Shown one piece after another: positions 29,460 to 60,262 of a stretch of 64,000 bases of DNA. The notes under the pieces are model-generated. The model did no database searches. It was not told the origin of the DNA and saw only the letters and a list, made by a program, of their open reading frames with translations. The translations under genes were made by a program, and so were the position numbers. Position 1 is the first letter of the stretch; each line of letters starts with the position of its first letter. This stretch comes from Podocnemis expansa (lineage: Eukaryota > Chordata > Testudines > Podocnemididae), in NCBI GenBank assembly GCA_007922195.1, contig ML682118.1, positions 1,916,393-1,980,392 on the forward strand, in the 5' to 3' direction.

Positions 29460-30269
29460 CAGCTATGTGCAACCCAGCCAAACTCCCCATGTTCCCCAAT
29501 TATTCCAGCATTTCCCTTGTTCTGAGCCCGATTGGGCATTGCAGCCTGATCCAACATTTCCCTGGTTCTCAGCCCAACACCAGCATCTCAGCCAGACACC
29601 AGCATCTCCCCCATTGCAGCTGGACCTTGGCATCTCACCCCAACCGCAGCATCGAAGTGTAACTCAGCATCTCCCTGCATTACAGCCTGCCCCCAACATC
29701 TCAGCCCAACCTTAGCATCTCCCTGGACTGAAGCCTGACCCAGCATCTCAGCGTGACCTGACATCTCTCCTTGCAGCTCAGCCCAACTCGGCATCTCCTT
29801 GCATCTCAGCCCAACCCGGCATCTCCCAGTAGCTCAGCCTGATCCAGCAGCTCTTCCTTTCTCCAGCCAGATCCCCTCATCTCTCCTTTTTTCAACCATG
29901 ACCTGGCATCTCTTCCATTCTCAGCTGGACCCCCCCTTGTTCCCCTTTCTCAGCCCAACCCTGCCTGTCTCCCACATTCTCAGCTTGCCCACAAGTCTGC
30001 CTCATTCTTTCTCCCCCCCTTCTGTGCCCAAACCCCGCATCGCAGCCTGACCCGGCATATCCCGGCATCTCAACCCTCCCCCAGCATCTCCCCCGTTCCT
30101 AGCCTGACCTTCCTTGTCTCCCCCATTCTTAGGCCTCCCTGCATGTCTTCCCTGTTCATAGCCCACCCAGCATCTCTCCCTCATTCTCAGCCCGACCCTG
30201 CCTGTCTTACTCCTTCTCTGCCCAACCCTCTGTGTCTCCCTCTTGCCCTTTTCAGCCTGACCCTCCCTG
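29460..30269. repeat. Degenerate minisatellite, about 30-bp unit (CAGCATCTC...)
   Basis: Imperfect copies of CAGCATCTCCCCCATTCTCAGCC-like text run up to the retrovirus. The pattern (CCTGTCTC...CCGCCCAACC) resumes at 46230-46285 after it, showing that the retrovirus split this array. Confidence 0.8.
30266..30269. repeat. Target-site duplication CCTG, left copy
   Basis: CCTG directly precedes the LTR start TGTAG at 30270 and recurs directly after the 3' LTR at 46230-46233. A 4-bp duplication is found in gamma-, epsilon- and spuma-type retroviruses. Confidence 0.85.
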
Positions 30270-32109
30270 TGTAGTCAGAGATTTTTTGCCATCTCTTTAG
30301 TATAACAAACAAACAAACAAACAAACAAACAAACATAAATAAATAATAAAAAAATATAAGGACACATATGGGTAGAAAATAGTAAGGCAATTTAGCAGAA
30401 GTTTTATGGCAAAGATGGAAAACAGCATGATATGCAGTAATTAATGGTAAAGAATTCATAAATCAATCATCTATTAATGTTTTAAAAACAAACAAACAAA
30501 CAAACAAACAAATAAATAAATAAATGCAGAAATACAGAAATAAATAAATAAAAGGGCATTCAGCAAGTGAAATGGAGAGATCATAGGTTCAGCAGATTCC
30601 ATAGGTATATATCTCTATCAGCAGATTCAACAGATATCTAAGTAGGTCAAGATGGAGGAAGATTCTGAACTTTTGAAGTCACTCAGTTCTCCTCCCATCA
30701 AGTATTCTAAGGTGTCCACCCCCTGTCAAAAGACCCATGAAAAGTATTGATTTTTGGTCAGGTGACAGGTGAAATCACCCTTTTTCCAGTTGGATGAAGA
30801 TGAACTCACATCTTTGGGACTGGTCAAGAAGCAACTGGGAGTGGCAGAACAGCGAATAAAAGGTGCTGCATAAAGCAGAACTGCGGAGATCTCTCCCACT
30901 CCTTACTGGGTTCCACTGGCCTCTGACTATGTTCCCGCTGCACTAGGAGTCTCACTCACACTCATCCCTAGAGAGTGTAACAACGTCTCTAGTGGAAGCC
31001 TGGGAGCTAAGACTTTGAACTTAGTCTCTGAAAGGCAACAGGGGCTGTGTCTCTGAGCGGTGACTCAGGACATTGTCCTTGAGCTGAGTCTCTGTGCTCA
31101 GTCTCAAAAGGTCTTCCAATAAAACTCATAAGTAAGCAGCCAACCAAGTCCTGCCATTAGCTTATGAGCAACGTTGCAGCTCTGGGTGCCCAGCAACCGC
31201 ACCTGCAAACCGCTGGAAGTTCCAAGGCGCGCCTGAGCTCCGGTTGCCTAGCAACTGCACCTGCCAGCCGCTGAAAATTCCGAGCTATGCCTGAGTTCCA
31301 GTTTCCATGGCAACCAGACCGGAGCTGAGAGAGAAAGAGAGGCCTGAACAACACGCAGCACCAGGTCTCCGTCCAGGACACTTTGCTTTTTGCTGGCTTT
31401 TTCTCTTCAATTATACCTTGTTTCTTCAACTACTGGGGTAAGCAAGGGGTCCCAAGGAGGGGAGGATCACCCATAGGGAGCAGTACTAGGGGAAATCCAA
31501 GCTTTACAAAGTCACTTTTAAAAGTAAATTGCGTAAGATAAGTGAGACAAGTAACCCAGATTAAGACCTTAAGGAGTAATATTAAGAACTGAGATGTCTC
31601 CATTCAGCCAGTGAATGGCCCTCACTTGCTGAATGTTCTTTTATATACCTCAATGTCTTTATGTTATAGTTATAAGTTAAGTGTTGCCTTTATGTTATAA
31701 TTGTGCCTATGTACCTTAATGTTTTTATGTTATAGTTATAAGTTAAGTGGTGTCTTTATATTCTAATTGTCTAGAGTAATTTTAATGCATTAAGATTAAT
31801 GTTAAATAGTGGTCTTTCTTAAAGGGACAGAAGCGTTTTATTCATTGCTTACAGTAGATATTACAATAAAGCCGCTTTTGCAATTGACAAATTATTGGCT
31901 CTAAATCCTTATTGCTTTTGGTCTGTGCTTGATCGGTGGGCTGTAGCCATATTTCCCACTTGGGACATTTATCTTAGGGTACTGATATTTGTCCGTTTAG
32001 TCAAAAAACGATCTTTTTGGGTTACCCTATAGACGTTTCAAATTAAATCCCAGACTGCTGGAGGGTCTGGAAATTAGTAAATTCAGCGATTAGATTTTTT
32101 GGGGTAACA
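30270..32109 (+). repeat. 5' LTR (1840 bp)
   Basis: It starts TGTAG and ends GGGGTAACA. U3 holds (CAAA)n and (TAAA)n runs at about 30305-30330 and 30486-30553. A TATA-like GAATAAAAGG lies at 30854-30863 and the first AATAAA at 31118-31123. A second AATAAA lies at 31865-31870, so the R boundary is not certain. About 73 bp (near 31680-31755: TTATGTTATAGTTATAAGTT type) is duplicated relative to the 3' LTR. At 1.8 kb the LTR is long for a simple retrovirus. Confidence 0.93.
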
Positions 32110-32113
32110 GAAT

Positions 32114-32131
32114 TGGCGAGCCAGGCAGGAG
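32114..32131 (+). promoter_or_regulatory. Primer binding site, tRNA-Arg type
   Basis: TGGCGAGCCAGGCAGGAG begins 4 bases after the LTR. From memory of the vertebrate tRNA-Arg(ACG) 3' end, 17 of 18 positions are complementary. It would prime minus-strand DNA synthesis. Confidence 0.75.
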
Positions 32132-32550
32132 ATTTTCACCTAAATTGGGGGATCACAGACCATAAAGCAATATAGGTCATGATGCAGTTAGCTTGTGACT
32201 AGCAATCTAAAGTGTTAAAGTGACTCGGGTGTAGTTCAAGCCATCCAGCTGGAGGACCATATCCAGTAAACCTGTAATCTATATAGTAAGGGTATAGGAC
32301 AGCCTTGCTTGAGGGGTACAGGGCCTGTGGCCACCGTGAGTGAGACATCACTATGGATGAGACAGGTTTATAGTTAGTCTCGGAGGTTATGGTTGGTAGT
32401 GGACTAACTAAGGAATTTCTAGGTATCTCTAGAGATTGGGGATCTCTTTGAGGTTTTATTAACGGAGAAGTCAGACTAGAAGATTCCGATGGGTTGCTCA
32501 GCCCTGAAGTGACTTTTTGAAATACTGTCCTGTGTTTAGAGAAAGCTTTT

Positions 32551-34510: not shown

Positions 34511-34561
34511 GGAGGCCGAGCGCCCCCTATTTCCCCAGTGTCAGCTGGAGAGCATGCTGAC
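34508..34561 (+). promoter_or_regulatory. gag/pro-pol UAG stop in a readthrough-like context
   Basis: The stop is TAG followed by GGAGGCCGAGCGCCCCC, and the same frame continues into protease. The UAG-GGAGG start and the C-rich run resemble the gammaretroviral suppression site. A hairpin GTCAGC (34540-34545) / GCTGAC (34556-34561) follows. Readthrough by tRNA suppression is inferred from frame continuity and context. Confidence 0.6.
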
Positions 34562-34900
34562 TTGGTGGCACATTTAGATCAAGATAGATGGGGAAGACCT
34601 ACAGTTTATGTAGAGTTTAAACAGGGAGTGTTCAGACAAAACATGCTAATTGATACAGGTGCCACTTTTTCCTTAGATAGTACTAAAAAGAAAAATCTAT
34701 TTGGATCCCCAGTCATTGTAAGGAACTTGCAGGGATTTAATGAAGCAGAAAGTAGGGTTCCATTCAGCCCTGTAGTGAATTTTAGATTAGGAAATAAAAA
34801 TGGAAAGTGACAATTTGGTCTAATAGAACTAGATGGAAATGGAATATTAGGAATGGACATTCTAAGAAATCTTAGGCTTATAGTTGATTTGGTAAACAGA
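34511..34900 (+). pseudogene. pro: Retroviral protease (retropepsin) domain of pro-pol
   Basis: It cleaves the viral polyproteins as an aspartic dimer. The active site LIDTGA is at about 34646-34663 (catalytic D at 34652-34654). The second signature GILGMD is at 34841-34858, followed by a VNRTLW end. A TGA at 34808-34810 interrupts the frame between them. It is in the same frame as gag. Its fold is the reference for the two extra protease-like genes at 38301 and 40016. Confidence 0.85.
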
Positions 34901-36480
34901 ACCTTATGGAAAATGTCCCTAGGTCAGGAAGATGTTACAAAAGAATCTATAATTATAGAAGCAGGCTATAGGCTATCTGCTGTAAAAGCAGCAGAAGAAG
35001 TGAAACGGCCTGAATGTCTGCAAGAAATTTTAGAAATTGCTCTACAGCATAAAGAAGTGTGGGTAAAAAGCAAAGCAGAATGGGGGAAAATAAATGCAGA
35101 AGTTTTAATTACAGGACCTGATTCCCCACCTCAAAAACAATATAAATATCCCAAAGAAGCAGAAGAGAGCTTAGCAAAAACAATTCAGAGTTTGATAGAT
35201 CAAGGAGTTGTAGTAGAAAAACAAAGTAAAAATAATGCAGCTATTTGGCCAGTTCTGAAAGCAGATAGAAAGACATGGAGATTAACTATTGACTTTAGAC
35301 CATTGAATAAAGTAACTCCAATAACTGCACCAGTTGTGGCTAAATATCCAGAGGTAATGGCTTCTATAATAGGAGGAGCAAAATGCTTCACAGTGTTAGA
35401 TCTGGCAAATGCATTCTTTTCCATACCATTACATCCAGACTGTTGGTATAAATTTGCCTTTACTTTTCAAAGCAGACAACTATGTTTCTGCCAAACTCCA
35501 TAAGGATTTCACTTGTCACCAACAATATGCCATATGCGTGTGATCAAAATGTGGGATGATATGCTCAAAAAGGATAATATCATCTCCTATGTTGATGACA
35601 TTCTGATTAGCACAAAAACCAGAGAAAAGAATTTAGAAATCTTAGATAAAGTTCTGCAGAAAATAGAGGAAACAGGTTTTAAGGTTAGCCCTGAAAAAGC
35701 ACAGATATGCCAGCAGTAGGTAAACTATCTAGGCGTAACTCTGGGACAAGAAGGGCGTTCACCAGATAAGCAAAGAGCAGAACTCCTACAGAAACTGCCA
35801 GCTCCTACAGATGTTTCCACTCTGCGATCATTCTTAGGGTTGACAAACTTTTCTAGAGATTTTGTGGAAAATTATGCAGAAAAAGCTTCTCCATTATACA
35901 AGTTGTTGAAGAAAGGTACTCAGGGGGAATGGGGAACAGACCAGCAAACAGCGTTTACCCAATTAAAACAGGCACTAGCACAGGCTCCAGCTCTAGCTTA
36001 CCCAAAGATAGAAAAACCTTTTGTGCTTCAATTAGCTAGCACAGACACCGGAATGAGCACAGTTCCTAGTCAGGATCATGGTACGGGATTAAGACCTGTG
36101 GCTTATGCTTCTAAGAATCTCAATGGAGTTGAACAAGGTTTCACTCATTGTGAGAAAGAAGTATTAGTGTTGGTATGGGCATTACAGCATTGGGAATATA
36201 TAGTTGGATTATTCCCAGTATTATTGAAAACCTCACACTCCCCTGTGAAATATGTCCTGACAGGAAAGGTTAATGAAGGTCATGTATCTAGTCCTAGGCT
36301 AGCTAAGTGGACATTAGCCTTACTGAACAAGAGTGTAAGCATGGAGAAAGTTCCAGCTTTATCTTCAGTTCCTTATGGACTTATCATAGAAGGGGAACAG
36401 CATGAGTGTCCATTGCCAGAAATCCTTCCAGAAGGTCCTATACTATTCCAAGGAGGAACAAAACTGCAGGAAGTAAAAGA
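34901..36480 (+). pseudogene. pol: Reverse transcriptase and connection region of pol
   Basis: Recognisable RT motifs in order: LIDQGVVVEK, IWPVLKADRKTWRLTIDFRP, FTVLDLANAFFSIPL, a GF.LSP segment, and the catalytic YVDD box at 35588-35599, then ETGFKVSPEKAQ and a YLGV segment near 35730. Stops lie at 35501-35503 (TAA) and 35717-35719 (TAG). The connection part contains FLGLTNFSRDFV and RPVAYASKNLNGVEQGFT, typical of gamma/epsilon-type pol. The enzyme copies viral RNA to DNA; this copy cannot be made full length. Confidence 0.9.
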
Positions 36481-37060
36481 TCAGGTAGATGAAATTTGGT
36501 TTGTGGATGGATCAAGTTATTGTAAGGAAGGACAGCATTTCACTGGGTATGCAGCAATCAGAATCTCTGACGAAAGGGTTATAAAGGGACAATGCTTACC
36601 ACATTCAGCTCAAGCGACTGAAATAGTAGCTGTTATTGTAGTATTAGAAAATGTCCCAGAAGACAAACAAGTTGCTATCTTCACAGATTCTGATTGGGTA
36701 TTGCGAGCTATAGTAGATTAGATGCCTCATTGGCAGAAAAGGGGAATGAAATCAGGAGATGGTAAGCCCATAGTTCATTCTGAAAAAAATTGATATATCT
36801 GTGGAACTTAGCTCAAACTAGATTACAACCAGTGTTAATGGGAAAAGTAAAAGCACATAGGAAAAACACAGAAGAGGCTCAATGGAATAATAAGGCAGAT
36901 GAGCAAGCCAAATTAGGACCCAAGGAGGGGTCTCTATGGAATCCCAAAGTACAGTTTCAGGCAGCCCCAATAGCCAGTATAGGAGAAGAACAAGTGGAAC
37001 AAATTGATCTAGTAGCATTGCAAAAGAAAGATCCTGAAATAAAGATACTAGTGGAGAAAG
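36481..37060 (+). pseudogene. pol: RNase H domain of pol, with stop and frameshift
   Basis: Its role is removal of the RNA strand. The motifs are IWFVDGSSY (first acidic residue), QATEIVAVIVVLE (E) and AIFTDSDW (D). A TAG lies at 36719-36721. The frame changes at an A-run near 36783-36789, after which KVKAHRK and NNKADEQAK give the H and last D region. Presence of a histidine/basic loop with KVKAH suggests a gammaretrovirus-like RNase H. Confidence 0.85.
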
Positions 37061-38244
37061 GAGAATTTTGTGAATGGCACATCAAAAGACATGAAACAGG
37101 ACTAATACTAGCAGCTAAAACAGAAGAAGACATCCCTGTATGGGTAGTACCATCTGATATTAGAACAGAAATGATAGCCTTAGCATATGATCATGGACAT
37201 TTTGGTCTAGACAAAACTTTAGAGAGACTGCAAATGGTAGGATGGTGGCCTAATATGAGATCAGATATAGAGCAATATGTGAATAATTGTTTGCCTTGTG
37301 TGGCAAACAATGCAGACACTAAGATAGTAAAAGGAAAATTAGGATACCAAAGAATTGAAGGTCCGTGGTCAAGATTACAAATTGATTATATTGGTCCACT
37401 TGCAAATACTGCTAAGGGAAACAAGTATTGCTTAGTGATTGTCGATCCTTTCACTAAATGGGTAGAATCAATTCCTACCAGGAATAATACAGTGCTAACC
37501 ACTGCTAGGGTATTAGTAGATCAAGTCTTTTCCAGATGGGGAATTCCAAAAGAGAGAGATTCAGATCAAGGTCCACATTTTGTAGGTGAGATAACAAAAG
37601 GACTGTGCCAAGCATTTGGAATTAAGCAAAGATTACACATAGCAGGACATCCACAAAGTTCAGGACAAGTAGAGAGAACCAATAGAACTATAAAGAACAC
37701 CTTAAGAAAAGTAGTAAATCTGCAAGGGAAAAATTGGGATAAAAAACTACCTTTAATATAAATTGCTATTAGAGGAACAGTAGCATCTCATGGAGTGACA
37801 CCATTTAGAGCAATGACAGGAAGAAACATGAGGTTGCCAGAACAATGGTGGTTAGTTGGGAACCCTCCAGATGAAATACAACCAAAAGTGCTAACAGATC
37901 ACTGGATGCAGCAACTCCTAAAATCTATTTCAGAAACTCATAAGCAGATAGCAATAGCCCTGAAAGCAAAAGCTCAGCAAATGGATCAGAAACTGGGTCC
38001 AATTATGCACCCACAAGAATGGCAAATAGGATATAGAGTGATATATATAGGCAGTTTAAGGAAAAAGACCATGTTCTATGTCCTGTATGGGAAGGCCCAG
38101 TTAAAATTGTCAATAAAGCAAGTCCCACTGTATATATGCTGGAGATTAAAAGAGGGAAAAAGAAAAGTAGTCAAATGGTTCCACTCCTCCCAAATGAAAA
38201 AGTGGAAGGGAGAGAAAACTGAGACAGCAGAAATAAGCCATTAA
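37061..38244 (+). pseudogene. pol: Integrase domain of pol
   Basis: It joins viral DNA to the host. The HHCC zinc module (H-x-H ... CLPC) spans about 37185-37302. The D,D(35)E triad is complete: D at 37384-37386, D at 37564-37566 and E at 37672-37674, exactly 35 residues between the last two. A TAA at 37759-37761 interrupts the core. The C-terminal part has a GPY/F-like module with KWFHSSQMKKW. Within about 38090-38150 the better match lies in another frame, pointing to a compensating pair of small indels. The stop is at 38242-38244. Confidence 0.9.
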
Positions 38245-38293
38245 GCAGGGAAAGAAAACTTTGTATATATGAATAGTTTATTTTCATTTTTGT

Positions 38294-38295
38294 AG
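38294..38295 (+). promoter_or_regulatory. Candidate splice acceptor before orfA
   Basis: TTTTCATTTTTGTAG|AAAAT lies six bases before the orfA ATG. The extra gene downstream at 40016 has the same arrangement (CATTTAG|AAATATGG), as expected for separately spliced mRNAs. Confidence 0.45.
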
Positions 38296-38300
38296 AAAAT

Positions 38301-39926
38301 ATGGAAAGTGAAAGTGAAGAAAATGGATATGAGAGTGGTATAAAAGATCAGAATAAATTATTGGATGGAGAAATTGCAAGATTAATAGAGGACTTTGATC
38401 ACAGATGGTTTACCATAGCAGCACTACTGATAGACGGAATAATAAGAAATGTGTATTTTACTATAAATACAGGAGCGGCCTTTTCAATCTTAAACATTAA
38501 TGGAATGTATGTTGATAATATAATTACAGAGGAAGCTAGATGGATTCATTCCTCATCAGGATGGGGAACAATTCCAGTAAGCATCCCTATAAAAATAAAT
38601 ATAGGAACAAAAAGGTCGCTTGGAAATTTTGGGCGTATAGATTTAGGTCCACATCAGTATAGTGTTCTAGGGCTAGATGCAATTTCAGCACTGGATTTGT
38701 GGATGCGGGAAGAGCCGTTGATGTGATATACCTTGACTTTAGCAAGGCTTTTGATACGGTTTCCCACAGCATTCTCATTGGCAAATAGAGGAAGTATGGG
38801 TTAGATGCATGGACTGTAAGGTGGATAGAAAACTGGCTACAACAACAGTTTCAGCGCGTAGGAATCAATGGTTCCATGTCAAGTTGGCAGGCAGTAACGA
38901 GTGGTGTGCCCCAGGGGTCGGTCCTGGGGCCAGTTCTGTTCAATGTTTTCATTAATGATCTGGATGATGGGATAGATTGCACACTTAGTAAGTTTGCAGA
39001 TGATACCAAACTGGGGGGAACGGTAGACACCCTAGAGGGCAGGGACAGGATTCAGGGAGACCTAGACAAATTGGAGCAGTGGGCCAAGAGGAATCTCATG
39101 AGGTTCAACAAGGATAAGTGTAAAATCCTGCACTTGGGATGAAAAAACCCCATGTACTGCTACAGGCTGGGGAGTGATCAGCTAAATAGCAGCACTGGAG
39201 AAAAGGACCTGGGAGTCATGGTGGATGGGAAGCTGGATATGAGTCAGCAGTGTGCTCTTGCTGCCAAAAAGGCCAATGGCATACTGGGCTGCATCAGAAG
39301 AAGTGTTACCAGCAGATGAAGGGATGTGATCATTCCCCTCTATTCTGCACTAGTGAGGCCACATCTGGAATACTGTGTCCAGTTTTGGGCTCCCCACTAC
39401 AAAAAGGACATGGACAAATTAGAGAGAGTCCAGAGGAGGGCAACCAAAATGATCAAAGGGCTGGAGCACAAGCCCTATGAAGAAAGACTAAAGGAACTAG
39501 GCTTCTTTAGCCTGCAGAAGAGAAGACTGAGGGGGGATTTGATAGCAACCTTCAACTACTTGAAGGGTTGCTCCAAGGAGGAGGGAGCTTGACTGTTCTT
39601 GGTAGTAACAGAGGGTAGAACGAGAAGCAATGGTTTCAAGTTACAGCTGGGGAGGTCCAGGCTGGATATTAGGAAAAACTTCCTTACTAGGCGAGTGGTG
39701 AAGCATTGGAATAAGCTGCCTAGGGAGGTGGTGGAATCTCCATCTCTGGAGGTGTTCAAGTCCCAGCTGGACAAAACACTGACTGGGATGATCTAATGGG
39801 AGTGGTCCTGCTTTTTTTGCCAGGGGGTTGGACTAGATGACCTATGAGGTTCCTTCCAACCCTATGATTCTATGATTCAATGAATTGTGTAATAGACTTT
39901 GGAAGGAAAAGGTTGTTGGAAAGTAA
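38301..39926 (+). pseudogene. orfA: extra retropepsin-like gene between pol and env, split by CR1
   Basis: The frame opens at 38301 with an acidic N-terminus (MESESEENGYESG). It has the retropepsin plan: FTIAALLIDG strand, YFTINTGAAFS at the active-site position (residues 56-59), paired IPIKINIGTK strands, and YSVLGLDAISAL, the counterpart of GILGMD in pro. The catalytic Asp of D-T-G is Asn here, so no protease activity is expected. At 38697-38701 (TTGTG) a CR1 is inserted. The viral frame resumes after the duplicated TTGTG at 39885-39889 with NRLW, as at the end of the pro domain, and stops at TAA 39924-39926. I know of no named accessory protein with this make-up. Function unknown. Confidence 0.75.
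38702..39884 (+). mobile_element. 5'-truncated CR1 LINE inserted in orfA
   Basis: A 1.18-kb CR1 3' part on the + strand, from the RT region (IYLDFSKAFDT-equivalent) through [20 protein letters not shown] and FADDTK to the 3' tail CCTATGATTCTATGATTC. A 5-bp direct repeat TTGTG flanks it (38697-38701, 39885-39889). It has several stops. It is closely similar to the - strand copy at 8397-12985 and is younger than the provirus. Confidence 0.92.
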
Positions 39927-40009
39927 GGATGAATAGAAGCAGTGCACAAAAACAATAAGGAAAAATAAAAAGTAATATAAAAAGTAATTGATTTATTCTT
40001 GTAACATTT

Positions 40010-40011
40010 AG
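40010..40011 (+). promoter_or_regulatory. Candidate splice acceptor before orfB
   Basis: TTTATTCTTGTAACATTTAG|AAAT lies just before ATG 40016. Layout and spacing are like the acceptor before orfA. Confidence 0.45.
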
Positions 40012-40015
40012 AAAT

Positions 40016-40636
40016 ATGGCGGATTGGGTAGAAGAAGTAACATCAATAGAAGAAGATGAGGTATTGAAAGTATTGGATCAAGGAGATACCACACAAGAAA
40101 GTTTAGAAATTGAGCGGATCTTGCGACCAGAAGACCAGGACGAAAAACAAAAATTGAGCAATGAGTTGAGGAAGAACATTCTCTTTGACATTCTTAATGA
40201 TACCAAAGAAAAAGGGACCCAGACAGAAGACATTCCAACAGTCATGTTTCTGGATAATAGATATGTTATAACTCCACTACTAAAAGATCACTACAATAGA
40301 CCACTGATGATAATATTTGTAAAAGTGCGAGATAGTGAAACAAGTCATGTATGTTATGTAGATCCTACAGCATCACATTATGTGATCAATACTAGAATCA
40401 TGCCACAAATTCTCTTGTATCGAACATATAAGAGAATCAGAATAACAAAGATACCAGGAACAGTGGAAATTACAACCTCCATAACAGTGAGAATAGGGAA
40501 TAAAAGGATTGAAAATATCAAATTTGGATTAGTGGAGATGGATGAAAGCCCATATGGGATACTGGGAATTGATGTCTTAAGAATGTTGAAGTGTTCAATT
40601 GATTTAGAAAAAGATGCCCTGGTCCAATTCCTCTAA
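40016..40636 (+). CDS. orfB: second extra retropepsin-like gene, intact frame
   Basis: An uninterrupted 206-codon frame in an otherwise decayed provirus. Residues 1-80 are acidic and charged (VEEVTSIEEDE; LEIERILRPEDQDEKQ). Residues about 96-205 follow the protease plan: MIIFVKVRD strand, CYVDPTASHYV at the active-site position (D116-P-T-A119 in place of D-T-G-A), ITVRIGNKRI, KFGLVEMD, and YGILGIDVLRMLKCSIDL, which closely matches pro (FGLIELD, GILGMDILRNL). Asp is kept but the essential Gly and Thr positions differ, so activity is doubtful. The N-terminal extension is absent from pro. It sits between orfA and env with its own candidate acceptor. Function unknown; possible roles are protease modulation, Gag/RNA binding or a host antagonist. 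Confidence 0.8.
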   Translation: MADWVEEVTSIEEDEVLKVLDQGDTTQESLEIERILRPEDQDEKQKLSNELRKNILFDILNDTKEKGTQTEDIPTVMFLDNRYVITPLLKDHYNRPLMIIFVKVRDSETSHVCYVDPTASHYVINTRIMPQILLYRTYKRIRITKIPGTVEITTSITVRIGNKRIENIKFGLVEMDESPYGILGIDVLRMLKCSIDLEKDALVQFL

Positions 40637-40883
40637 AGATGGTGTACCTAACCTGAAGAAGTAATTTTAAGTAGTTGTATTAGAAATTATGGCAGTATAA
40701 GCATAGACATAAGTAGTGTGTAAAATATATATATGTAGGAATATAGAAGTAACATGTTTGTTTATAGGTATATTAAGTAAAAATGACTGAGCAGGGAAAA
40801 GAAGAACAGATAATAGAAGGTGTTTAAAGAAGGAAGGAAGGTTTTTTTGTGTTTATTTCATTCCAGAATACAACGGATGGAAG
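40637..40883 (+). other. Spacer before env with candidate splice acceptor
   Basis: A-rich non-coding spacer. TTTATTTCATTCCAG ending at 40866 is a good acceptor just before env. Confidence 0.5.
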
Positions 40884-42350
40884 ATGGAGCCATATTTGCA
40901 TTGGCTTTTCTGGGTCTTTGCCTGCTTGTGTTGCTGCTATGGTACTGTGAACGAGACAGCTCTGACTGCAACCATTGAATGGAGTAAACCAACCGAGGAT
41001 TCCAGTAGTGCATATGGAAGTATGGAAGAATGTATCTTCACACTTCCACCCCTCAACAACACCAAACTTATAGCTTTTATGGGACCAACAGAGATTGTAA
41101 AACTTTTAGCTCAAAACAAAAGTTTTTCCACAAATTGTGCCCATAAATGTCCTCTTGAATTTGATAATGAAGAGGAAGGTTGGATAACTATGACTATAGG
41201 ATCTAGTAAGGCACTGACACAGCCTTTTAGTTGTACATGGAATGATACCGGAAAACAAAGGAGATTGAGTGGTAAAGTAAATAGAGTAGGTTCATGGCAG
41301 TGTGTTATCAATCAAAATTCCAATATTATTGCTAGTACATCCATTAAAAGAGTTATAAGAGAAAAAGTGCAATCACTAAACAGGCAAGAAATGGCCACCA
41401 GCATTCAATGGGTTGATTCTCCCGCAGCATGGATAGTAAATCAGGTTCAAGGTTGTGAATTCACAATTCAAAAAGGATTAAGAAAGGAGGTAGTGGGAAA
41501 GAATAAACCTTTTACTATAATGATGGGTACATTAGAAGCTATCATACAAAGGGATAACATACGAAATGTAGCTATACAACTGTCACATAAGTGTTCTCTC
41601 AGATTTGATACAGTAGAACAGGGAAGGATTTTAACACACCCACAATATTACTCCGCCCCTAAACCATCTACTTGTGGATGGGATAATAAATCAAATAAAG
41701 GAAAAATATCGGGAACAACAATTATACCAGGACATTGGCAATGTGCTATTACAGAGGGACCAAATGTACTGTCAAGATCAGAGCAAAGGACAATCATGAT
41801 TGAAGAAGAATCTAGATATGGTATTATTGTATGGTACATCCCATTGTGGAATAAGAGAGATATACAGCACATGCATGTTCGTTGGTATCATGATAGGCAC
41901 AACGATACTGTACATACATTCAAATTAGAAGATCCTATAGGAAATATTACCACCCATCCTTTTAAATGTCAAACAAATATAAGTATTTTTACCAAAGAAG
42001 ATGTAGCACAAGTACTTCCAGCAACATATAAGCACCTTACTCATGAAAAAGAGTGTCAAATGGGGTCATATCAGCAAACATTATTTCAGTATTACTGTGA
42101 AGCAGATGTAAACATAATAAGACAAAGGGGTAGTGGAACATGGAAACTTATAGGTAAAGATTTCAGTTGTACTTTTCCATTTATATGGGTACTCAAACCA
42201 ACAGTAACGAATATTGGTCCTTATGCAGTAAAAGAAGATATTAGAAAACAGCTGATCATAAATCCATCTTCTTCACTGAAGAAAGTAGTGTTAGATCTCA
42301 CACAAATTTTCTCTCTAAAACCTCAATGTCAAAATATACCAAACCATTAG
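40884..42350 (+). pseudogene. env: env surface (SU) part, frame intact to a shift near 42320
   Basis: The envelope glycoprotein frame begins with a signal-peptide-like hydrophobic stretch (WLFWVFACLCCCYG, residues 7-20). Two related domains of about 125-130 residues follow (about 33-159 and 176-307). Both have C.FT near the start, HKC.L.FD in the middle, C.W, and end G.WQC.I. A third, looser unit (about 320-430) has C.F and G.W signatures. Numerous NxT/NxS sites are present. The frame closes at 42348-42350, while transmembrane-subunit text is already open in another frame from 42326, so a small indel near 42290-42325 separates SU and TM. The other ATG at 40877 is out of frame. Confidence 0.8.
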
Positions 42351-43882
42351 AGGAAGGATGGAAAAGATGGATACACACTCAATTTTTTCCAAGTACTATT
42401 AAAGATAGGAAGAAGACAAGCATGATGGAAACAGCTCTAGGAGGAGCAGGAACAGGACTGGGAATTTTAAATAGCATAGACGTAGAAATATTGGCAAACA
42501 AATTGAGCAGGTTAGGACAACAATTGGGAAATTCGGCAAAGCCATTACAAACCTCCTTAACAGAAATGAGCTCAAGTCAATACATAGCTGCCAAACTGCT
42601 TCCAGAATGGGAAAAATCCCACAAAGCAGATCATTTAACAATTTTGGATACAATTGAAACATTGCAAAATAATGTATCTCTTGCATTAGCATGTATCCAG
42701 GCTCAAGCATGGATGCATGATGTAATGAAAGATGTCGTCAGAGCTGGAATGGGTGGACGATTGCCACTAGAAATAAAAAGTGCAATTTGGAAGCATGTTT
42801 CAAAATTTGAAACTGAGTTACATGAATGGTGGAAAATGATCAACTTCACCTATAATCCATCCGAAAATCAAATTACTGTATATATATTAATGATCACCAA
42901 GGCTCAAGTTAAATGGATATCTCCAGTAATTGGCTTAGGGATAAATTTAAACTTAACAGTAATACAGTCAATGGGATATAAATTATGGGCATTAAAACAA
43001 GGAAGTAACTGGAAAACCATAGAACTTGAGGCTTGCACTGAAGAATCAGATAGTGTTGGATATATTTGTAATCAAAATGCTATTCAATCCTGTGATGTTT
43101 GTTTGAATAGAGAACAGGGAGAATGTTATCATCAATTGAATCCAAGATCTTCCAATGAATCAATGATTGTATATGTTGGGAAAACTTGTATATGTATAAG
43201 AAGTTGGTGTACCTTGTTTAAAGTGAACTATGCTTATGATATTGTACATAATCCATATGAAAATCAATGTTTATGTAATATTACATCTTTAGTAGGGTGC
43301 GATGTCGAATACACCTTACCCCTACAGGTTGATGAAGAAATTAAAGAAGAATACCGATTGTATGAACAAATTGATCCAGTTCCATTGGGACCAAATGTTA
43401 CCATTATCCGAAAATTGATAAAACACCCTGATTTGAAGAAAGAAGTGGAAAAGGTGAAAGAAACTGCTCAAAGTGTACTGCTCACCGTGCGACATTCAGC
43501 TAAACAAATTGAACAAGTGATGGAACGAGTTAAGGGAATCTCACAACACAATTGGTGGAGAGTATTCATGGGATTGTCCCCCACAGCCACCAAGTACTTA
43601 AATGTGTTGTTACATCCAATGGTAATGTTATTAATGATGTAGATTGCCTTGGCTATTTCACTGCTAATATTAGTGTTTTGGGTAAAACGAAAAATTAAGA
43701 AATTGAAATTGCTATTGTGGTTATCGAGTGGTAAAATATATAGCCATTCCCCAACAAATTCACTTAGCAAGTCCTCACGTATGGATCCGGATGGAAGAGA
43801 CTTGTGCCAGTACGAAGACATGATGGCTCGGTCTCCTGGCATGGAGAGCCTTGAGAGCAAACTGGACAAGAAAATTCTATGA
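42326..43882 (+). pseudogene. env: env transmembrane (TM) part with in-frame stop
   Basis: The N-terminal segment has a basic stretch (KDRKK), a possible furin-type site. Next comes the G/A-rich TALGGAGTGLGIL, a probable fusion peptide, then helical text (VEILANKLSRLGQQL), W-rich WMHDVMKDVV, and three cysteine clusters (CDVCLNREQGEC, CICIRSWC, CLCNITSLVGC). A membrane-proximal coiled coil follows (EVEKVKETAQSV...IEQVMERV). A TAG at 43640-43642 interrupts the frame just before IALAISLLILVFWV, the membrane anchor, and KRKIKK. No CX6CC motif of the classic gammaretroviral kind was seen. This subunit would drive membrane fusion; the present copy is broken. Confidence 0.8.
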
Positions 43883-44055: not shown

Positions 44056-44262
44056 TGTAGCCTGAGATTTTTGCCATCTCTTTAGTATAACAAACAAACA
44101 AACAAACAAACAAACAAACACAAATAATAAAAAAATAAGGACACATATGGGTAGAAAATAGTAAGGTAATTTAGCAGAAGTTTTATGGCAAAGATGGAAA
44201 ACAGCATGATATGCAGTAATTAATGGTAAAGAATTCATAAATCAATCATCTATTAGTGTTTT

Positions 44263-44294
<32 letters not shown>

Positions 44295-46229
44295 ATGCAG
44301 AAATAAATAAATACAGAAATAAATAAATAAAAGGGCATTCAGCAAGTGAAATGGAGAGATCATAGGTTCAGCAGATTCCATAGGTATGTATCTCTATCAG
44401 CAGATTCAACAGATATCTAAGTAGGTCAAGATGGAGGAAGATTCTGAACTTTTGAAGTCACTCAGTTCCCCTCCCATCAAGTATTCTAAGGTGTCCACCC
44501 CCTGTCAAAAGACCCATGAAAAGTATTGATTTTTGGTCAGGTGACAGGTGAAATCACCCTTTTTCCAGTTGGATGAAGATGAACTCACATCTTTGGGACT
44601 GGTCAAGAAGCACCTGGGAGTGGCAGAACAGTGAATAAAAGGTGCTGCATAAAGCAGAACTGCGGAGATCTCTCCCACTCCTTACTGGGTTCCACTGGCC
44701 TCTGACTATGTTCCCGCTGCACTAGGAGTCTCACTCACACTCATCCCTAGAGAGTGTAACAACGTCTCTAGTGGAAGCCTGGGAGCTAAGGCTATGTTCA
44801 CACACAGGGGGTTATTTCAATACAGTTGTTTCGAAACAACTTGTATCGAAATAACACCTTATTTCGAAATAACTTATTTCGAATTAACAGTTTGTTAATT
44901 TGAATTAAGGAAAAAAACTCAAAGCGAAATAGTAGGTTCAGGCAACAGTTATTTCGAAACAAGTCACAATTGTTTTGAAACAACGTGTTTGCACGGTGTT
45001 GTTTCAAAACACTCGTTTTGAAACAACATTGTTTCGTCCCCGCATGGGGTTTAACTTGTTTCAAAACAACACCATTGTTTCGAAACTACGGGACCCGTTC
45101 TTTTGAAACAACCGTGCGTCGTGTGAACAGCCTAAATCTTATTTCGAAACAACCTCTGTTGTTTCGAAAGAAGAGGGCTGTGTGCACACAGCCTAAGTCT
45201 TTGAACTTAGTCTCTGAAAGGCAACAGGGGCTGTGTCTCTGAGCGGTGACTCAGAACATTGTCCTTGAGCTGAGTCTCTGTGGTCAGTCTCAAAAGGTCT
45301 TCCAATAAAACTCATAAGTAAGCAGCCAACCAAGTCCTGCCGTTAGCTTATGAGCAACGTTGCAGCTCCGGGTGCCCAGCAACCGCACCTCTAAGCCGCT
45401 GGACATTCTGAGCCACGCCTGAGCTCCGGTCGCCTACCAACTGCACCTGCCAGCCACTGAACGCTCTGAGCTACGCCTGAGTTCCAGTTTCCACGGCAAC
45501 CAGACCAGAGCTGAGAGAGAAAGAGAGGCCTGAACAACACGCAGCACCAGCTCTCTGTCCGGGACACCTTGCTTTTTGCTGGCTTTTTCTCTTCAATTAT
45601 ACCTTGTTTCTTCAACTACTGGGGTAAGCAAAGGGTCCCAAGGAGGGGAGGAACACCCATAGGGAGCAGTACTAGGGGAAGTCCAAGCTTTACAAAGTAA
45701 CTTTTAAAAGTAAATTGCGTAAGATAAGTGAGACAAGTAACCCAGATTAAGACCTTAAGGAGTAATATTAAGAACTGAGATCTCTCCATTCAGCCAGTGA
45801 ATGGCCCTCACTTGCTGAATGTTCTTTTATATACCTCAATGTCTTTATGTTATAGTTATAAGTTAAGTGGTGTCTTTATATTCTAATTGTCTAGAGTAAT
45901 TTTAATGCATTAAGATTAATGTTAAATAGTGGTCTTTCTTAAAGGGACAGAAGCGTTTTATTCATTGTTTACAGTAGATATTACAATAAAGCCGTTTTTG
46001 CAATTGACAAATTATTGGCTCTAAATCCTTATTGCTTTTGGTCTGTGCTTGATCGGTGGGCTGTAGCCATATTTCCCACTTGGGACATTTATCTTAGGGT
46101 ACTGATATTTGTCCGTTTAGTCGAAAAACGATCTTTTTGGGTTACCCTATAGACGTTTCAAATTAAATCCCAGACTGCTGGAGGGTCTGGAAATTAGTAA
46201 ATTCAGCGATTAGATTTTTTGGGGTAACA
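44056..46229 (+). repeat. 3' LTR (2174 bp with inserted MITE)
   Basis: It matches the 5' LTR from TGTAG to GGGGTAACA with about 1-2% differences over most of its length. The size differences are a 404-bp MITE plus TAA (44790-45196) and lack of the 73-bp duplication seen in the 5' copy. The segment aligned to 31165-31390 is far more divergent than the rest. Confidence 0.93.
44790..45193. mobile_element. Harbinger-like MITE in the 3' LTR, TTTCGAAA-word family
   Basis: The ends are GGCTATGTTCACACACAG and GTGTGCACACAGCC, with TAA on both sides (44787-44789 and 45194-45196). The 5' LTR has an empty site with a single TAA. The body is TTGTTTCGAAACAA / TTATTTCGAAATAA words. This dates activity of the family to after the retroviral insertion. 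Confidence 0.92.
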
Positions 46230-60144: not shown

Positions 60145-60262
60145 ATCATATCATAGGGCTGGAAGGGACCTCATGAGATCATCAAGTCCAACCCCCTGGG
60201 AATTGAACCCAGGACCTTCTGCATGTTAAGCAGTGGTGTTAGCCACTACACTATTTCATGCT
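60145..60262 (-). repeat. tRNA-derived SINE with CR1 3' tail
   Basis: On the - strand a tRNA-like head has an A-box-like TAGTGTAGTGGCTAA and a B-box-like GGTTCAATTCC. The anticodon-loop position reads CTTAACATG, so the head most resembles tRNA-Val(AAC). It is followed directly by CR1 tail text (GGGGGTTGGACTTGATGATC). This fits a SINE mobilised by CR1. It is not a working tRNA gene because the acceptor stem does not close. Confidence 0.7.

Follow-up and report, generated by a model that had tools for sequence, protein, structure and literature searches.

Protease-related genes between pol and env in an endogenous retrovirus of the turtle Podocnemis expansa

We analyzed a stretch of 64,000 nt from the genome of the turtle Podocnemis expansa (contig ML682118.1, positions 1,916,393 to 1,980,392 of the forward strand; in the following called the window), which contains a single provirus. 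Between integrase and env, the lineage of this retrovirus carries an array of genes, called A to E (orfA to orfE), that are homologous to the viral protease gene pro and have altered catalytic loops. With a probability of about 0.6, we regard them as genes for accessory proteins that bind without cutting. The sequences show that the genes are homologous to pro, stand in a fixed order and have altered loops, that purifying selection acted on them, and that short motifs ahead of the protease-like domain are conserved.

Arrangement of the genes in the window and in sister proviruses

The genes of the window copy all lie on the forward strand. An in-frame stop splits pro into two pieces, which we compared separately as proN (34511..34807, with the loop IDTGA at 34649-34663) and proC (34811..34990; FGLIELDGNGILGMDILRNL), the latter continuing into the reverse transcriptase. 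Farther downstream, orfA comprises a head and a pseudo-retropepsin domain with the loop INTGA at 38463-38477 (38301..38697). It is followed by a fragment of a long interspersed nuclear element (LINE), presumably of the CR1 type, at about 38698..39877 (RVT_1 match, E = 3.9e-16), beyond which lies the 3′ end of orfA (39878..39926). The next gene, orfB (40016..40636), is an intact frame of 206 codons with an acidic head and a pseudo-retropepsin domain at about 40265-40633 (loop VDPTA at 40358-40372). It is open in this copy, with gag, pol and pro disrupted by stops or frame changes. Of orfC, the first codons remain (40783..40824), up to a deletion junction at about 40818-40824.

We searched the host genome (2.39 Gb in 1487 contigs) with orfB and obtained at least 147 matches, with 150 of 375 candidates scored. 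Among the best 28 matches (343 bits or more), some of them on twin contigs, 16 are free of internal stops. A second search with E yielded at least 150 matches (150 of 294 candidates scored); at the locus from which the query was taken, it also matched C and D, with identities of 38% and 35%.

We fetched 16 loci with close copies (L009-L024) and 24 loci with older ones. The close copies have five genes in the order A-B-C-D-E between integrase and env, with frames broken in many. Profile matches to all five genes follow in this order at 13 of the 16 close loci; the exceptions are L011, lacking D, L013, lacking E in the fetched stretch, and L022, where A was present in the first mapping and absent from later maps. 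Among the 24 older loci, nine show B-A-F, one B-F (L040) and three A-B-D-E (L028, L038, L042), and pieces resembling D or E are frequent between F and env. The sixth paralogue F belongs to this older lineage, where it follows B-A at L026, L030, L034, L035 and L036 and B at L040. It was not seen at the 16 close loci.

This arrangement modifies two points of a preliminary description, made from the window sequence alone. It had read orfA as one continuous frame from 38301 to 39926; the start holds, and the LINE fragment interrupts the frame. It had also described a retrovirus with pro plus two extra genes, which applies to the window copy, the sister copies having pro plus five.

The absence of C, D and E from the window copy can be followed to its junction. 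Downstream of orfB, the sequence follows the B-C linker into the first codons of C; at about 40824 it passes abruptly into the linker between E and env, and up to 7 bases are common to both sides. The same junction occurs at two other loci, 92% and 86% identical across all 131 bases; the remaining 37 of the 40 scored junction matches cover it partially. Apparently, C-D-E was lost in one step, and the presence of the junction at three loci indicates that a sublineage without these genes multiplied, perhaps aided by full copies. A segmental duplication was not seen: the 111 listed matches to the provirus flank include none in the vicinity of the other two copies of the junction (40 of 1532 candidates scored).

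One older locus deserves separate mention. At L027 (597-1814; G000:C155:2026496-2027713), C2H2 zinc fingers (zf-H2C2_2, E = 2e-21) are linked in frame to an orfB domain that is intact, the whole forming an open frame of 406 codons; A and env of this provirus have decayed. The frame is possibly a host-virus fusion gene.

Homology to the viral protease

We compared the window pieces by Smith-Waterman alignment against 1000 shuffles each. The scores of orfB with proC (p about 2e-7 to 7e-7) and of orfA with orfB (p = 2e-6 to 4e-6) were not reached by any of the 1000 shuffles. For proN with orfA, p was about 0.002 (0 and 3 of 1000 shuffles). No significance was reached by proN with orfB (p = 0.2) and proC with orfA (p = 0.13); the highest unrelated control was proN with gag (p = 0.023). 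In the window copy, identity to proN was 20% for orfA and 18% for orfB; to the short piece proC, it was 32% and 44%, respectively. Searched alone against the Pfam family RVP, orfB scored E = 0.0038, below the curated cut-off.

Profiles built from the sister copies gave stronger signals. In profile-profile comparisons, pro matched A at E = 3.9e-7 and B at 8.8e-8, and the array genes matched each other: A-B at 2.9e-11, A-D at 7.1e-12, A-E at 9e-7, B-D at 1.3e-8 and B-E at 1.5e-8. The closest relationships were found among the last three genes (C-D 5e-26, C-E 2.8e-30, D-E 1e-28), the weaker pairs being A-C (4.9e-5) and B-C (2.9e-5). The F profile matched A (8.7e-10), B (1.8e-11) and pro (3.8e-5); its comparison with C was not significant. 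Against a top score of 22.8 among 36 reversed decoys, the pairs pro-A, pro-B, A-B, A-D, C-D, C-E and D-E scored 47.8-186, and 17 of 18 controls with integrase or env stayed below 20. A profile made only from accessory rows (27 rows, A-E) matched the pro profile with a probability of 97.4 and E = 1.1e-11 over 116 columns.

Among 22 B rows, Pfam assigned RVP to 14, Asp_protease_2 to ten, gag-asp_proteas to eight and Asp_protease to five (best E = 7.8e-6); six of nine pro rows matched Asp_protease_2. Searching PDB with the A-E profile, we found seven chains at E <= 10. Six are retroviral-like aspartic protease 1, and the seventh, 7d66, is titled 'Ubiquitin family protein', which we take to be kin of DDI1. 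Single sequences, searched against PDB, returned DDI1 chains among noise. We also tried a reading of the genes as dUTPases and rejected it, as no dUTPase family of Pfam matched the A-E rows at E <= 0.1. By sequence and profile similarity, the array genes thus belong to the retropepsin superfamily, C only through its paralogues.

We then placed 65 domains in a tree over 123 columns. Six paralogue groups resulted, each on one side of a branch with a support of 86-99, and C, D and E unite with a support of 99. Eight rows (five B, three E) had been dropped when their anchor was not found, and the tree program warned of few columns and of long branches meeting. The tree is unrooted and has no outgroup; therefore, it does not prove the direction of descent.

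We also looked for orfB in general collections. A search of 5.8 billion protein sequences gave 126 candidates, none at E <= 1, and IMG/VR gave seven pattern matches, none of them confirmed. Vertebrate viruses are probably scarce in both collections, and these negatives therefore carry little weight.

Catalytic loops and silencing

The genes differ clearly in the loop that holds the catalytic residues. The Asp is kept in eight of nine pro loops, six of them with the Gly as well, and in 39 of 42 B loops, and in no loop of A (0/32), C (0/16), D (0/26) or E (0/19), that is, in none of 93. The B counts include F segments, which account for two of the three DTG rows tallied as B, and a few odd loops are misalignments. 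Opposite the IDTGA of pro, A mostly reads I-N-T-G (INTG in 15 loops, the Gly kept in 29 of 32), C reads L-R-P-N, D L-A-P-S and E L-I-P-S. B in the 17 close copies, including the window, reads DPT (11), DPA (5) or DLT (1), with the Gly lost in all 17; in older copies DPG, DPR, DST and one DTG (L037) occur. F has IDTG in all six readable copies (L026, L030, L034, L035, L036 and L040). The C-terminal strand after the helix is kept in those A-E rows that reach so far.

An active retroviral protease has a D-[TS]-G loop. This loop is lacking in A, C, D, E and the close copies of B and present in F, and A to E are therefore not classified as proteases. We consider it very probable that the genes descend from retropepsins and that A, C, D and E were silenced. 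The genes likely arose by duplication of an active protease, F of the older lineage still reading IDTG in every readable copy, and were silenced afterward, completely in A, C, D and E and halfway in B. F itself may have been a second active protease outside pol in the older lineage.

The preliminary description had derived the homology of orfA and orfB to pro from shared motifs. Shuffle tests and profile comparisons now bear this out, and the loops INTGA and VDPTA read as it had claimed. The profile comparisons, the six groups of the tree and the purifying selection described below likewise support its view that retropepsin-like paralogues lie between pol and env and that their catalytic motifs are altered. 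The acidic N-termini that it noted in both genes are real, and they contain conserved short motifs.

Selection and expression

We estimated dN/dS by the Nei-Gojobori method from open frames. The median was 0.32 for A (15 rows; all 91 usable pairs below 1), 0.29 for B (24 rows; 262 of 262), 0.19 for C (8 rows; 28 of 28) and 0.24 for E (11 rows; 55 of 55). Excluded were 14 of 105 A pairs as too short, and 13 of 275 B and 57 of 66 D pairs without usable dS. Values well below 1 indicate working viral genes, and we infer that the five genes functioned while the lineage multiplied. The genes are separate frames, conserved and under purifying selection, as is characteristic of retroviral accessory genes.

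Upstream of A, an acceptor-like splice site lies 5 bases from the ATG; its p value is 0.03-0.07 in eight of the nine copies and 0.25 in the ninth. Another lies 15-16 bases upstream of C (0.06 in six of eight copies, 0.27-0.30 in two).

Conserved motifs in the N-terminal heads

The heads of A and B each contain a short motif resembling a known host-factor binding site. Of 61 A segments, 29 extend to the site, and 21 of these have [DE]SGxxS; the other eight, including that of the window (38319-38336), all differ by one residue. When four A heads were shuffled 5000 times each, the motif arose 31-101 times. A thus carries a conserved sequence of the DSGxxS degron type; Vpu uses DSGxxS to recruit beta-TrCP, according to the section consulted of PMC1933454.

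In B, [KR]x[TV]QT is found in 27 of the 39 segments that reach the site (80 B segments in all), most commonly as EKGTQTE (12) or EKATQTE (6), the former also in the window at 40208-40228. Of the 12 segments without it, 11 differ by one residue. Shuffling three B heads 5000 times each produced the motif 0-9 times. The site is retained in B rows with as little as 33% identity to orfB, which makes chance unlikely. In the excerpt consulted of PMC6607443, the phage-display optimum for LC8 is VSRGTQTE, and anchors favor a positive residue at -3 and D, E or P at +2. The TQT-type motif of B has favored residues at -3 (K) and +2 (E), and its charged flanks count against it.

Proposed function and alternative explanations

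Each gene of the array would be expressed from its own spliced mRNA, its silenced retropepsin domain serving as a binding and pairing module and its N-terminal head recruiting a host factor. As candidate roles, the preliminary description had proposed dominant modulators of the protease, partners of Gag or antagonists of the host; the conserved motifs make us lean toward the recruitment of host factors. The A head, serine-acidic around [DE]SGxxS, would recruit SCF-beta-TrCP, as does Vpu of human immunodeficiency virus type 1 (HIV-1), and the ligand of the A domain would be degraded. The partner of the B head, with its EK(G/A)TQTE, would be the LC8 hub, which would pair two B chains or link them to transport. 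C, D and E, the most altered genes, share an acidic, tryptophan-bearing head. We rate this complete picture, with silenced retropepsins as binding modules and heads that recruit host proteins, at somewhat below even odds. Equally tentative is its evolutionary form, in which the protease of the virus would have given rise to an entire set of accessory tools. These would be five tandem retropepsins (six with F), their active sites switched off successively and each equipped with a different host-recruiting head (beta-TrCP for A, LC8 for B), in which the peptide-binding cleft of the protease became an adaptor that acts on host or viral targets and does not cut.

Several results weigh against a set of non-cutting accessory proteins or against parts of this picture. 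The frames are broken in many sister copies, and the sublineage without C, D and E still multiplied, indicating that these three genes are dispensable in cis. In direct profile-profile comparison with pro, C fails (E = 0.23), and D (4e-4) and E (3.3e-4) are weak, so that all three are tied to pro mainly via A and B. One of the 18 controls, E against the first env frame, scored 57, which was probably caused by L023, where E shares one open frame with env. Rows of A, C, D and E have no Pfam aspartyl-protease match, and the PDB matches of the A-E profile lie at E = 0.17-1.0; since the pro profile itself finds no PDB retropepsin, the latter values are no argument against the array genes. Two AlphaFold models of orfB, made with too few rows (those of the window), reached predicted local distance difference test scores of 37.9 and 33.2 and did not yield a fold. 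The dN/dS of D (0.17) is based on nine unsaturated pairs of 66, and the restriction to open frames biases all values slightly downward. Splice acceptors are good for A, fair for C and weak for D and E, and no acceptor-like site was seen upstream of B; given these uneven signals, separate mRNAs are an inference. The A head of the window itself has lost the serine of its motif. Many TQT peptides fail to bind LC8, and high charge near the anchor, as in the B heads, disfavors binding (excerpt of PMC6607443). The functions suggested for both heads follow from motif resemblance.

The chief rival is that the accessory copies regulate the protease, pairing with it as dead partners or capping the cleavage sites in Gag and thereby timing or limiting its activity. 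This would suit A, which lost precisely the catalytic Asp and mostly kept the Gly, a change resembling the inactive Asp-to-Asn HIV-1 protease, and it would suit the preserved C-terminal strand, the pairing site of retropepsins. However, retropepsin pairing is specific, and orfA and orfB of the window are far from pro, with the low identities given above. A dimer poison would also need fewer than five diverged copies with different heads, and the conserved heads are left unexplained. A search of open-licence papers for dominant-negative monomers of the HIV protease gave nothing on this point. We consider mixed pairing unlikely.

Another explanation sees in F and the older B copies a second protease, active now or once on other substrates, with only A, C, D and E silenced. 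The intact loops of F and the Asp of nearly all B loops, together with the DPG of some older B copies and the DTG of L037, are in its favor. Nevertheless, F was not seen at the 16 close loci, B has lost the loop Gly in every close copy and the window, and two of three DTG rows tallied as B are F segments. We regard this reading as improbable.

Very improbable is the capture of a host gene, by which the array would stem from a cellular retroviral-like aspartic protease (kin of DDI1 or ASPRV1) instead of the viral pro. Cellular retropepsins are indeed the sole solved structures near the accessory profile; their chains reach E = 0.17 or worse, against 1.1e-11 for the pro of the provirus, a rough comparison across different methods. 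The direction of descent is, again, not proven by the unrooted tree without an outgroup. Chance motifs or decaying junk frames, to which the weak single-sequence signals might point, are hardly credible in view of the shuffles, the decoys, the tree, dN/dS and the 16 stop-free frames among the 28 best genome matches.

Relation to known systems

In domain plan and profile, A to E resemble the retropepsins (RVP PF00077, Asp_protease_2 PF13650, gag-asp_proteas PF13975) as well as DDI1 and ASPRV1, and like retropepsins they have a G-[IL]-[LI]-G-x-D region ahead of the last helix. They differ from retropepsins in being separate genes outside Gag-Pol with acidic heads and in having lost the Asp, the Gly or both.

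With respect to position between pol and env and separate frames, the array resembles the accessory genes of lentiviruses and foamy-like viruses, which, in the parts consulted of PMC5512871, are not described as protease-derived. For the accessory genes acc3 and acc4 of a foamy-like endogenous retrovirus (FLERV), these parts give no known domains, unlike the array. FLERV acc1a and acc1b are paralogues that arose by duplication, as in the array, with two copies compared with five or six here. The [DE]SGxxS motif of the A head is shared with the DSGxxS of Vpu (section consulted of PMC1933454). CrocERV29 has a gene for KIT ligand between pol and env, captured from host mRNA, and the excerpt of PMC4299795 does not mention protease paralogues.

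Duplicated accessory genes are also present in walleye dermal sarcoma virus (WDSV; orfA and orfB) and in lentiviruses (vpr and vpx). We know of no such pair, in FLERV, WDSV or lentiviruses, that was derived from a viral enzyme. The dUTPase-related family of herpesviruses offers a parallel in which a viral enzyme fold was duplicated, silenced and redeployed; it concerns another enzyme and another class of viruses and implies no kinship.

In the open-licence literature, judged by titles, abstracts and passages of a few papers, we found no report of protease-derived accessory genes; the portions consulted of PMC6001957, PMC10435555 and PMC4977317 do not mention them. In our judgment, the origin of many accessory genes of retroviruses cannot be traced. 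Here it can be read: the genes are kin of the viral protease that were multiplied, silenced stepwise and kept under selection. The series leads from DTG in pro and F through D-P-T in B and N-T-G in A to the loss of both residues in C, D and E. Dozens of copies in one genome constitute a record of this change from enzyme to accessory gene, allow the conversion of a viral enzyme into a non-catalytic effector to be tested directly, and supply natural dead retropepsins for comparison with working ones.

Further features of the provirus

The provirus is bounded by long terminal repeats (LTRs) on the forward strand, the 5′ LTR (TG...CA) at 30270..32109 and the 3′ LTR at 44056..46229. In two blocks with 1446 aligned bases, the LTRs show 62 differences, and in a third block, which overlaps a repeat, 6 in 402. 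A target-site duplication of 4 bp, cctg, is present at both outer ends. ERV4 of crocodilians and turtles is similar in having env and a gag without zinc-finger family (excerpt of PMC4299795), and no such family was found in the gag frames by a Pfam-type scan of the window. However, the ERV4 duplication measures 5 bp according to the same excerpt, and with 4 bp the provirus is not assigned to ERV4. The nearest solved integrase is that of prototype foamy virus (PFV; E = 7.7e-28).

Directly downstream of the accessory genes, env occupies two frames on the same strand (40884..42350 and 42326..43642). Within its surface part (40884-42350), about 100 residues are duplicated internally; the alignment scores 125, the shuffles average 28, and none of 1000 shuffles scored as high. 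In this retrovirus lineage, modules of env were duplicated as well.

After the 5′ LTR, the window reads tggcgagccaggcaggag at 32110-32150, which looks like a primer binding site for tRNA-Arg, the type of site that snakehead retrovirus uses. The 3′ LTR carries an insertion of about 400 bp (44797-45192) with many TTTCGAAA palindromes, a motif also present upstream of orfD at L041; a non-autonomous DNA transposon is the probable identity of the insertion. Upstream of the provirus, the flank (29700-30262) is a dispersed repeat with at least 111 genome matches listed. Finally, a tRNA-like match to RF00005 lies on the reverse strand at 60196-60253 (37.4 bits, above the Rfam gathering score); ARAGORN made no call there, and the match is likely a tRNA-derived short interspersed nuclear element or a pseudogene.

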